In this document: in pieces, positions 42,181 to 45,531 of the stretch | How positions within the stretch are numbered: position 1 is the first letter of the stretch | Layout: each line of letters opens with the position of its first letter | Source: Bryobacterales bacterium | GTDB lineage: Bacteria > Acidobacteriota > Terriglobia > Bryobacterales > Bryobacteraceae | Length of the DNA stretch: 64,000 nucleotides | Reading direction: 5' to 3' | Assembly: GCA_947446025.1 (NCBI GenBank) | Contig: CANFEY010000006.1 | Span: forward strand, 1-64,000 | Translations under genes and position numbers: made by a program | The notes under the pieces: model-generated | What the model was told of the DNA's origin: nothing | Databases searched by the model: none | The model's input: the letters and a program-made list of their open reading frames with translations, nothing else

Positions 42181-42209
42181 TTGCATCGATTCTGGATTCG
42201 GAGTATAGT
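42181..42209 (+). promoter_or_regulatory. Sigma70-like promoter
   Basis: TTGCAT (42181-42186), 17-nt spacer, TATAGT (42204-42209), 29 nt before the ATG at 42239. Confidence 0.6.
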
Positions 42210-42238
42210 CGGGGTGCGTATTTCAAGGAGATCGGAGG

Positions 42239-42463
42239 ATGCCGTGCCCCCCCCCCAGTTCTTCAACTAAGCTGCTAACCACTGCTGAGGTAGCCCAAGT
42301 GTTGCGTATCTCGCCCCGCACAGTACGGCTTTGGGCAGAGTGTTCCGCGCTTACTGGCGTACGCGTGGGCAGGCAGTGGCGATTCCGCGCAGGTTACATC
42401 GAAACGCTCATCTGTCGCAATCAACTTTCATCGGAATTCGGAATGAACGGGAGAATTTCATGA
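42239..42463 (+). CDS. Excisionase/MerR-type helix-turn-helix DNA-binding protein
   Basis: LLTTAEVAQVLRISPRTVRLWAECSALTGVRVGRQWRFRAGYIETLI; C10 tract at codons 3-6; AAGGAG RBS upstream. Confidence 0.8.
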   Translation: MPCPPPSSSTKLLTTAEVAQVLRISPRTVRLWAECSALTGVRVGRQWRFRAGYIETLICRNQLSSEFGMNGRIS

Positions 42464-42582
42464 ACGGTGTCAATTGCTTGCCGGGTTTCTCGGAAATAGC
42501 GGAAAGTGCGGCATACACAATTCCTCAAGTCGGGTTACGATCATCCCGCGTCATTCGTGACGACACCGAAAAGGAGAACTGA
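42460..42582 (+). CDS. 40-aa small ORF, translationally coupled
   Basis: MNGVNCLPGFSEIAESAAYTIPQVGLRSSRVIRDDTEKEN; ATGA overlap with the HTH stop, stop 1 nt before next ATG. Confidence 0.4.
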   Translation: MNGVNCLPGFSEIAESAAYTIPQVGLRSSRVIRDDTEKEN

Positions 42583-42583
42583 A

Positions 42584-42991
42584 ATGCGTAACACAATCAT
42601 TCAAGTGTCGCTTGCGGCCTTGCTCTTTGCCGCTCCGACGTTTGCTGGTTCCAGCCCCGCGCCCGTGGCTGAACCCAGCATCGAAATCTCTGGCGGAGAC
42701 GCCGCGGGAGAGGCCGTCCCGGGAGACGTTCCGGAGTTCAAAACGATGGACGAGTTGTTGGAATACATGGATCGTCAAATGGCGAGGTTCAAGGGTGTCT
42801 CGGCTGGAAGACCTGTTTCGACAACGGAGTCCTCCACCGAAGACTCGTTACACCAAGAGGCCGCATATTGCCTCAATGCCGCAATTCTTTTCCGTCAGTT
42901 TTGTGAGTTTTGGACTGGTTACGACCCAATCTGCGATCTTTGGTTCATCGCCGAAATCGCCGTTTGCGATGCCCTGGCAGCAGAAGGATAG
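42584..42991 (+). CDS. Small secreted protein with C-X10-C-X9-C-X10-C helical-hairpin-like domain
   Basis: Signal MRNTIIQVSLAALLFAAPTFAG; C-terminus YCLNAAILFRQFCEFWTGYDPICDLWFIAEIAVCDALAAEG; AAGGAG RBS. Confidence 0.75.
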   Translation: MRNTIIQVSLAALLFAAPTFAGSSPAPVAEPSIEISGGDAAGEAVPGDVPEFKTMDELLEYMDRQMARFKGVSAGRPVSTTESSTEDSLHQEAAYCLNAAILFRQFCEFWTGYDPICDLWFIAEIAVCDALAAEG

Positions 42992-43046
42992 GTTTTGACT
43001 ACTACCGAGTGGGCGGCCACCCGCCCACTCAGGAGCAAGGACGCTT

Positions 43047-44042
43047 ATGATCAAGAAGCGAATGTTGCCGATGTTGCTGCTCGCTGCATCTTGTTTTTCC
43101 TTGGCGCAGCCAAACGTTCCTGCGGTCGCCTGGATCGACGGCGTGCCTCTCTTGCGAACGGAGTTCGACACCTTTACAGCAAATCAACTGCTCCGCCTAA
43201 AGTCAGACCTGTATGCTGCGGAAGTGGCGATTTTAGACGAGGCGATTGAAAACCGTTTGTTGGCAGCCGAGGCCAAGCACCAAAACATCACCGTAAAGGA
43301 CTTGATTCAGCGGGAGGTTACCGGAAAGATTCCTAAGGTGTCAGAAGCAGAGGCTAGAGCGGTATTGGAAAACGCGGGGAAACGGGACTTTTCAGAAGCG
43401 TCGCTTGAGAGCGTGATGTCCGATTTGGCGCGCCGGCGAGCGGCCACGCGCCGCGCCGAGTACTTGATTGCACTGCGCCAAGAGCACGACGTGAAGATCT
43501 TGCTGCCAGCACCTAGAGTTACGGGGCAGATATTCAAGGGTGAGTCTGTGGGCCCCTTGAAGGCCCCGGTGGACATCGTCGAATTTTCCGACTTTCAATG
43601 CCCCTTTTGCGGTTCATTCTCCATGACTCTCAATGAAGTTCTAAGGGTGTACGAGGACAAAGTTAGACTCACTTACAAGCACTTCCCACTTCCGATTCAC
43701 CCGCAAGCGGAGAAGGCTGCGCAGGCCTCTGTTTGCGCGGCGGAGCAAGGTAAGTTTTGGGACATGCATGATCGCCTCTTTGCCGAGCAACGACTATTGG
43801 CGGCGGCTGCGTTCAAAGAAATCGCGGTGCGAGCCGATTTGGACTTGCCGGTGTTTGAAGCGTGCCTACGGAAGCAGTCGCCGGCCACCAGCGTCGCTCG
43901 TGATTTTGCAGAAGGACTGGCGTTAGGGATTTCGGCTACTCCAAGCTTTTTGATCAACGGGAGACTGTTCACAGGGGCAAGGTCAGCTGCTGCCCTAAAG
44001 GAATTGATTGACACGGAACTCGAGTTGGTTGGTAGAGAGTGA
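43047..44042 (+). CDS. Secreted DsbA-like thioredoxin-fold oxidoreductase with SurA-like N-terminal region
   Basis: IVEFSDFQCPFCGSFSMTLNEVLRVYEDKVRLTYKHFPLPIHPQAEKAA (CPFC); GISATPSFLINGRLFTGA; N-terminal helical region VAWIDGVPLLRTEFDTFTANQL...ENRLLAAEAKHQNITVKDLIQREV. Confidence 0.88.
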   Translation: MIKKRMLPMLLLAASCFSLAQPNVPAVAWIDGVPLLRTEFDTFTANQLLRLKSDLYAAEVAILDEAIENRLLAAEAKHQNITVKDLIQREVTGKIPKVSEAEARAVLENAGKRDFSEASLESVMSDLARRRAATRRAEYLIALRQEHDVKILLPAPRVTGQIFKGESVGPLKAPVDIVEFSDFQCPFCGSFSMTLNEVLRVYEDKVRLTYKHFPLPIHPQAEKAAQASVCAAEQGKFWDMHDRLFAEQRLLAAAAFKEIAVRADLDLPVFEACLRKQSPATSVARDFAEGLALGISATPSFLINGRLFTGARSAAALKELIDTELELVGRE

Positions 44043-44061
44043 AGGTCTACCGGAGGATGCC

Positions 44062-45531
44062 ATGAGACGTTCACATCTTTATCGCCGTGGCCTCAGCTTC
44101 CTACTCGTGGCCCCCTCATTCTTGATGGCGCAAGACTCGAGTTCTGTTTTCCGCTCCGACGTGCGGCTGAAGGAAGTCAACCTGATCGCCTCCACTAAGG
44201 ATGGCCCCGTGTTGGACCTCACGAGAGACGATTTCGAAATCTACGAAGACGGAAAGCGCCGGGAGATCAAACTGTTCCTTCCCCAAGGGCCCGAGCCGGT
44301 ATCATTTAGAACTGTCTCAAGTAGCCCCGTTGTTGCCAACACGCCCGCAGTGACAGGCGCGCATACCGTGATTCTCCTTGATTGGCTCAACACGGATCTG
44401 CCGGACCGTGCGTACGCGTCTCAAAAACTGACACGGATGTTATCTACCGTTCAGCCCAACGATCTCGTCGCAATCTATGTGATTGAGCGGGGTCTGCGGG
44501 TTGTCCACGACTTCAGTTCTGACCCGGCGATCCTTGCCGAAGCTGTCCGCAGAATGAGAGGCAACGCGGACACCCCTCCAGATTTGGGGGCCTTCGGGCC
44601 GGCCACTCGGGCTACCGAAGAGATCGCCAGGTTAGATCTACGGACACGAGCCGCAATCACTCAAGCCTCCCTGAAACAGATTCAACAACGCATGGCAGGC
44701 ATCCCGGGTCGTAAGAATTTGATTTGGCTGTCTTCACGTTTCGGTGAGAATTGGAGTCCGCAGACGCCCGGACTTGCTGTCTATCCGGTGGATTCACGCG
44801 GGCTCACGAGCGGCAACCCTTTGGATCTTGCGCAATCCAAAGCCGTCCCAAGCCTTATAGCAGCGGCCATCCAGCGGGCGGACGAAAAGAAGATACAGCA
44901 ACTCAGCAAAGAGGCGAGCCTCACGGGAGGCCACGCCTACACTGGGCGCAACGATTTGGATGCCGTGATGCGCGAAATCCTCGACGACGGTGCTACGTCC
45001 TACACTCTCGGTTACACGGTGCCCGAGGCACCGAAGCCTGGCAAACATACAATCCGCGTTCGAGTGGCGCGGAAGGGCGTGACTTTGCGTTATGCGGACT
45101 CCTTCACGGTCGAGAAACCCACTCCGCCCGAGGATACAGCCAAGCGGATGGGCGAGGCCTTCACTCGCCCCCTCGACATCACGGAACTGCCGATTGCAGG
45201 GAGCGCCCGCCCAATTGGTGATTCGGTCCGTTTGAATATTCAGGTTCCCACGTCGCTCATCACGCTTACGCCTCTCGGGGAAGGGTGGCAAGTTCGCCTA
45301 GATTTGGCGGTGCGTTTCATTGCGCCGGATGACGTTGGGACTGGCGCAGCCCAATATCTCCTGCAAACAATGAATCTGCCGCTGGCAGGAGACGCCTACC
45401 AAAAGGCCCTCACCGACGGCCTCAGCATCACCGCCGCCTTGTCGCGGCCTCCCACCGCGAACTCGCTTCGGCTGCTGGTTCGCGATGTTGTCACTGGTGT
45501 CCTTGGCACCTTGACGCTATCCATCGAGTGA
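44062..45531 (+). CDS. VWFA-related acidobacterial-type (TIGR03436-like) secreted protein
   Basis: VRLKEVNLIASTKDGPVLDLTRDDFEIYEDGKRREIKLF; HTVILLDWLNTDLPDRAYASQKLTRML; TSYTLGYTVPE. Confidence 0.85.
   Translation: MRRSHLYRRGLSFLLVAPSFLMAQDSSSVFRSDVRLKEVNLIASTKDGPVLDLTRDDFEIYEDGKRREIKLFLPQGPEPVSFRTVSSSPVVANTPAVTGAHTVILLDWLNTDLPDRAYASQKLTRMLSTVQPNDLVAIYVIERGLRVVHDFSSDPAILAEAVRRMRGNADTPPDLGAFGPATRATEEIARLDLRTRAAITQASLKQIQQRMAGIPGRKNLIWLSSRFGENWSPQTPGLAVYPVDSRGLTSGNPLDLAQSKAVPSLIAAAIQRADEKKIQQLSKEASLTGGHAYTGRNDLDAVMREILDDGATSYTLGYTVPEAPKPGKHTIRVRVARKGVTLRYADSFTVEKPTPPEDTAKRMGEAFTRPLDITELPIAGSARPIGDSVRLNIQVPTSLITLTPLGEGWQVRLDLAVRFIAPDDVGTGAAQYLLQTMNLPLAGDAYQKALTDGLSITAALSRPPTANSLRLLVRDVVTGVLGTLTLSIE

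Follow-up and report, generated by a model that had tools for sequence, protein, structure and literature searches.

Why a secreted four-cysteine peptide with no detectable relatives should be encoded directly ahead of a disulfide foldase, in a small group of genes between hisS and aspS of a Bryobacterales acidobacterium, is the question raised by this locus. Within the window, which is the whole 64,000-nucleotide stretch of DNA that was analyzed, five ORFs on the + strand encode a 74-aa DNA-binding protein of the HTH_17/excisionase type (42239–42463), a putatively coding 40-aa smORF (42460–42582), a secreted 135-aa peptide (42584–42991), a secreted foldase (43047–44042), and a secreted 489-aa acidobacterial VWFA protein (44062–45531). 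The spacings listed in the original prediction agree with the DNA, with a 4-nt ATGA overlap between the HTH gene and the smORF followed by gaps of 1, 55, and 19 nt, and Shine-Dalgarno-like AGGAG, GGAGG, or GGGAG motifs can be read ahead of all five starts. Profile searches yielded no domain or family match for either the smORF or the peptide, and no independent support for coding was found for the smORF. The single promoter that had been proposed to serve these genes fared less well. The weak promoter-like element at 42181–42209 (+ strand; TTGCAT-17-TATAGT) matches 8 of 12 consensus positions by count, which is not above chance, and a scan of the region for elements with at least 9 of 12 found none (1.3 expected by chance).

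The proposal that these genes form an inserted cassette is borne out by comparison with related genomes. The site is empty in all same-genus relatives that have both hisS and aspS on one locus, including a genome (G192) whose aspS is 93% identical to that of the window, and the two genes are adjacent, lying approximately 3 to 95 bp apart in same-genus genomes where both were recovered together. Because this gap is so short in relatives, and because the 95-bp spacer of another genome (G195) resembles the end of the window aspS leader (approximately 45600–45678), the block at approximately 42077–45600 (no strand assigned; right edge approximate) is a lineage-specific insertion of approximately 3.5 kb. 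It is also less GC-rich than its neighbors, as had been noted, with a GC fraction of 0.564 for 42077–45600 versus 0.613 for the rest of the window; 1 of 121 sliding segments of 3.5 kb is as low (minimum, 0.562), and GC3 is 0.57 to 0.64 in the four larger cassette genes versus 0.76 to 0.82 in hisS and aspS. The gene cluster is unique to the source acidobacterium among the genomes searched. Neither the ORF list nor domain searches revealed an integrase or transposase among the inserted ORFs, and searches for terminal or flanking repeats gave only short, chance-like matches. The HTH protein scores above the cut-offs for both HTH_17 (39.7 bits) and the excisionase-type profile TIGR01764 (35.1 bits versus a cut-off of 28.8); however, no partner integrase is present in the insert, and its assignment as the excisionase of a mobile element is not supported.

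In the foldase, an N-terminal chaperone domain of the SurA/PEB4 type (approximately residues 25–150) is fused to a DsbA domain (approximately residues 165–326). The DsbA domain matches Thioredoxin_4 (100.9 bits) and DSBA (65.7 bits), both over cut-off, and carries CPFC at residues 185–188 and a cis-proline motif at T298–P299 that is invariant in our alignment A2. In the window protein, the SurA_N match is weak and falls short of the Pfam cut-off; SurA_N_3 was matched in 32 of the 46 full-length relatives aligned, and the N-domain profile matches HP0175 and PEB4-type proteins (Cell-binding factor 2). The AlphaFold model has a mean pLDDT of 91.9, and DsbA, BdbD, and ScsC are among its best structural matches. 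ScsC and BcfH are DsbA-like trimeric isomerases with an N-terminal oligomerization domain (PMC8900818). Like these proteins, the foldase has an N-terminal helical extension on its DsbA domain, but this extension is a larger SurA/PEB4-type chaperone domain rather than a short trimerization helix. Relatives with the same fusion were recovered from Acidobacteriota, Myxococcota, Bdellovibrionota, Gemmatimonadota, Nitrospirota, Binatota, Spirochaetota, and other phyla, and a search of the literature outside subscription papers returned no report on SurA-DsbA fusions. The source genome, with an estimated completeness of 99.9%, contains DsbA-like proteins and gave no match to DsbB (PF02600) or VKOR (PF07884). 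Therefore, the foldase may act as an isomerase, or it may be reoxidized by another partner.

The peptide consists of a signal peptide, an acidic spacer, and a 44-residue C-terminal region holding all four cysteines, and the mature form has a pI of 4.05 and a charge of −14. The cysteines, at positions 96, 107, 117, and 128, follow the pattern CX10C-X9-CX10C, which is symmetric about residue 112, such that the pairs C96–C128 and C107–C117 share this midpoint. This symmetry agrees with the helices at residues 85–111 and 115–134 predicted by a single-sequence model (pLDDT approximately 70 to 82 in the helices; mean of 57.9, which is low confidence). Because eleven residues span approximately three helical turns, the two cysteines of each helix would lie on the same side, and the cysteines fit a putative doubly stapled helical hairpin. 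As the peptide is an orphan, both the hairpin and its disulfides are read from the cysteine spacing and this one low-confidence model, which gave no significant match in the PDB. No relatives beyond chance-level matches were found in the order, 396 genomes of the phylum, GTDB contigs, IMG/VR viral contigs, or PLSDB plasmids. The weak matches (E values of 0.0015 and above), which mostly do not cover the cysteine hairpin, were discarded; the only one opened, in genome G065, lies within a sequence that is unrelated and interrupted by in-frame stops. A twin CX9–11C pattern was found in none of the other small secreted ORFs at the loci retrieved.

Mitochondrial twin CX9C (CHCH) proteins are likewise formed of two antiparallel helices, each with a cysteine pair, and are handled by a dedicated oxidoreductase, Mia40. 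The putative two-helix antiparallel hairpin of the peptide, with two cysteines per helix, resembles this arrangement, but the peptide has CX10C twice, is bacterial, and appears to be exported by Sec. It gave no Pfam match to the CHCH family profile, and no sequence relation was found. Because both spacing and sequence differ, the likeness to CHCH proteins, for which two oxidized cysteine pairs are described (PMC10653836), is an analogy only.

Although the peptide itself has no relatives, homologous foldases repeatedly lie directly downstream of unrelated secreted multi-cysteine proteins, and the predicted link between peptide and foldase is upheld by this analogy. Neighbors were surveyed with simple codon-model gene calls and rule-of-thumb signal peptides, applied identically to test and control loci, and pairs were counted when a same-strand gene lay within 250 nt upstream of the fusion gene (n = 59), with 426 other gene pairs from the same loci as background. 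A predicted secreted protein with at least four cysteines is encoded directly upstream in 29 of 59 fusions versus 52 of 426 background pairs (Fisher p = 3e-10), and one of no more than 300 aa in 21 of 59 versus 18 of 426 (Fisher p = 2e-11); both tests ignore relatedness, and because the counts lean on relatedness and on rough gene calls, these p values are only indicative. DsbA-only controls have such a secreted multi-cysteine neighbor in 3 of 20 cases. At least three apparent clients among the 29 are false calls, namely a second foldase (L174) and two probable ABC transporters recognized by reading their sequences (L213 and L219), which were dropped from the tree labels and none of which belongs to the set of 300 aa or less.

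About ten unrelated families are represented among the upstream clients, and the largest, with a CC-C type motif, has 18 members, so the independent cases number approximately ten. On a maximum-likelihood tree of the foldases, the client trait requires 10 changes, at least eight of them forced by well-supported branches. The window foldase, on a long branch, groups with that of locus L164 (support 91/96), where the foldase gene begins 19 nt after a gene for a 164-aa secreted protein with 18 cysteines. Other clients include 8-cysteine proteins of Myxococcota (L199 and L203) and 10-cysteine proteins (L120 and L185). Placing SurA-N/DsbA foldases beside unrelated secreted cysteine-rich proteins is a wider habit that apparently has not been described.

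A separate observation concerns a secreted family of approximately 200 aa with a CC-C or C-G-S-C motif (e.g., 'SCCSCPVTPNGL'), to which no named family was matched. Its genes lie immediately or a short way upstream of fusion genes in Acidobacteriota and Binatota (L074, L082, L084, L088, L104–L108, L112–L114, L122, L123, L125, L126, L194, and L226), and further copies lie nearby in L082, L084, and L086.

These surveys also bear on the possibility that the protein is a general envelope foldase, serving many secreted clients, and that its adjacency to the peptide gene has no functional meaning in the source genome. Many fusion relatives have no cysteine-rich neighbor, and because the source genome encodes only two Thioredoxin_4 proteins, including this one, the window foldase could indeed be general. 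We nevertheless regard this explanation as unlikely, given the strong enrichment of secreted multi-cysteine upstream neighbors, the repeated origins of the arrangement, and the presence of peptide and foldase in one insertion that relatives lack.

The spacer between the peptide and foldase genes contains a stem-loop (43007–43030, + strand) with a perfect 10-bp stem, GAGTGGGCGG-CCAC-CCGCCCACTC, and has a folding energy of −27.2 kcal/mol (z = −3.6). The 24 client–foldase spacers have a median z of −2.76, with 17 at or below −2, versus a median of −0.21, with 17 of 139 at or below −2, for the other spacers of the same loci (p = 1e-6). An Rfam search of the insert gave no matches. A T run follows some of the spacer hairpins, as in leaky terminators (L107 and L122), but not the window hairpin. 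Near-perfect long stem-loops of the GGGTAACCGG/CCGGTTACCC type were seen in the client–foldase spacers of L107, L108, L112, L114, and L122, some of them with a T run. We infer that such hairpins raise expression of the client over that of the foldase.

The remaining genes are less closely tied to the foldase. Relatives of the HTH protein, the peptide, or the VWFA protein were not detected near any other foldase locus fetched, and the idea of a conserved five-gene system is not sustained. The genome also encodes a paralog of the HTH protein with 58% identity, followed by the gene for a secreted protein, and in L247 a relative precedes the gene for a 6-cysteine secreted protein; most other HTH relatives are placed otherwise. 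The HTH protein is plausible as a regulator of secreted-protein genes. The locus of the paralog (L258; G000:C89, 3022–5924) has it directly ahead of a gene for an 843-aa secreted protein, the gene order also found in the window. The VWFA protein matches TIGR03436 (acidobact_VWFA) at 181 bits versus a cut-off of 81.25, and the closest relative within the order, at 39% identity, is encoded beside a permease-like gene; a role as a conserved foldase partner was rejected.

We also considered a surface-adhesion module, in which the peptide would join the VWFA protein in a complex on the outer surface, the foldase would fold the peptide part, and expression would be switched by the HTH protein. The VWFA gene begins 19 nt after the foldase gene with its own ribosome-binding site, and HTH relatives precede secreted-protein genes in two loci, as described above. 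This explanation is quite improbable, however, since no VWFA relative was detected near any of the other foldase loci tested, since the approximately 20 other TIGR03436 proteins in the genome make a chance VWFA neighbor plausible, and since the VWFA protein has no cysteines and thus needs no disulfide foldase.

The operons for sublancin with BdbB and for pediocin with PedC carry transporters, and to our knowledge neither oxidoreductase is a SurA fusion; we also know of no SurA domain in DsbL. Client-linked Dsb enzymes are already known, as in astA-dsbL-dsbI of uropathogenic Escherichia coli, where the DsbA-like oxidase DsbL is encoded beside the secreted client AstA that it serves (PMC4152235), and in sunA-bdbB (PMC6391423) and pedA-pedC (PMC4919988), where a thiol oxidoreductase is encoded with sublancin or pediocin, respectively. 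As in the first system, the foldase gene of the cassette adjoins a gene for a secreted cysteine-bearing peptide, 55 nt upstream, and as in the latter two, a thiol oxidoreductase is encoded with a small peptide, here one with four cysteines. Unlike DsbL, which has its own DsbB-type partner, the foldase comes from a genome with no detected DsbB or VKOR, and across the fusion family the clients are numerous and unrelated to one another. What sets the cassette apart from these systems is the fusion to a SurA domain, the diversity of putative clients, and the hairpins in the spacers. That the locus is a bacteriocin-type operon, in which a dedicated thiol oxidoreductase would mature a secreted antimicrobial peptide, as the original prediction had allowed in suggesting a secreted toxin or bacteriocin, is very improbable: although a small secreted disulfide peptide with a hydrophobic hairpin adjoins an oxidoreductase in a lineage-specific insertion, as in sunA-bdbB (PMC6391423) and pedA-pedC (PMC4919988), the mature peptide is strongly acidic, its sequence begins with a signal peptide for Sec and not with a double-glycine leader, the five ORFs between hisS and aspS include no usual transporter or immunity gene (except perhaps the putative smORF), and homologous foldases also accompany large secreted proteins.

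On balance, we lean slightly toward the view that the cassette is portable and has at its core an orphan disulfide client peptide with its own foldase. By analogy with the homologous loci, the peptide would be the client of the adjoining enzyme. It would be exported by Sec, the chaperone domain of the fusion would bind it unfolded, and its disulfides would be formed or corrected in the periplasm, leaving its last 44 residues as a pair of antiparallel helices held together by C96–C128 and C107–C117. The stem-loop between the genes could keep the client in excess of the foldase, either by stabilizing the messenger or by causing partial termination. The cassette is probably under the control of the HTH protein; the VWFA protein may be a passenger or an adhesive or surface partner.

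A broader reading is offered more tentatively, as a possibility we hold with less than even confidence: SurA-N/DsbA fusions may be widespread, portable, client-dedicated oxidative foldases that have been paired repeatedly with unrelated secreted cysteine-rich proteins in Acidobacteriota, Myxococcota, and Binatota, often with a ratio-setting stem-loop, and the window client, a bacterial analog of CHCH proteins with a twin-CX10C hairpin, would have the fewest cysteines of them all. The gene for the fusion offers a genomic handle for finding secreted disulfide proteins, including orphans that are invisible to family searches. The cassette itself allows one to test whether a foldase has become specialized for a single client, in phyla for which little work on oxidative folding exists.
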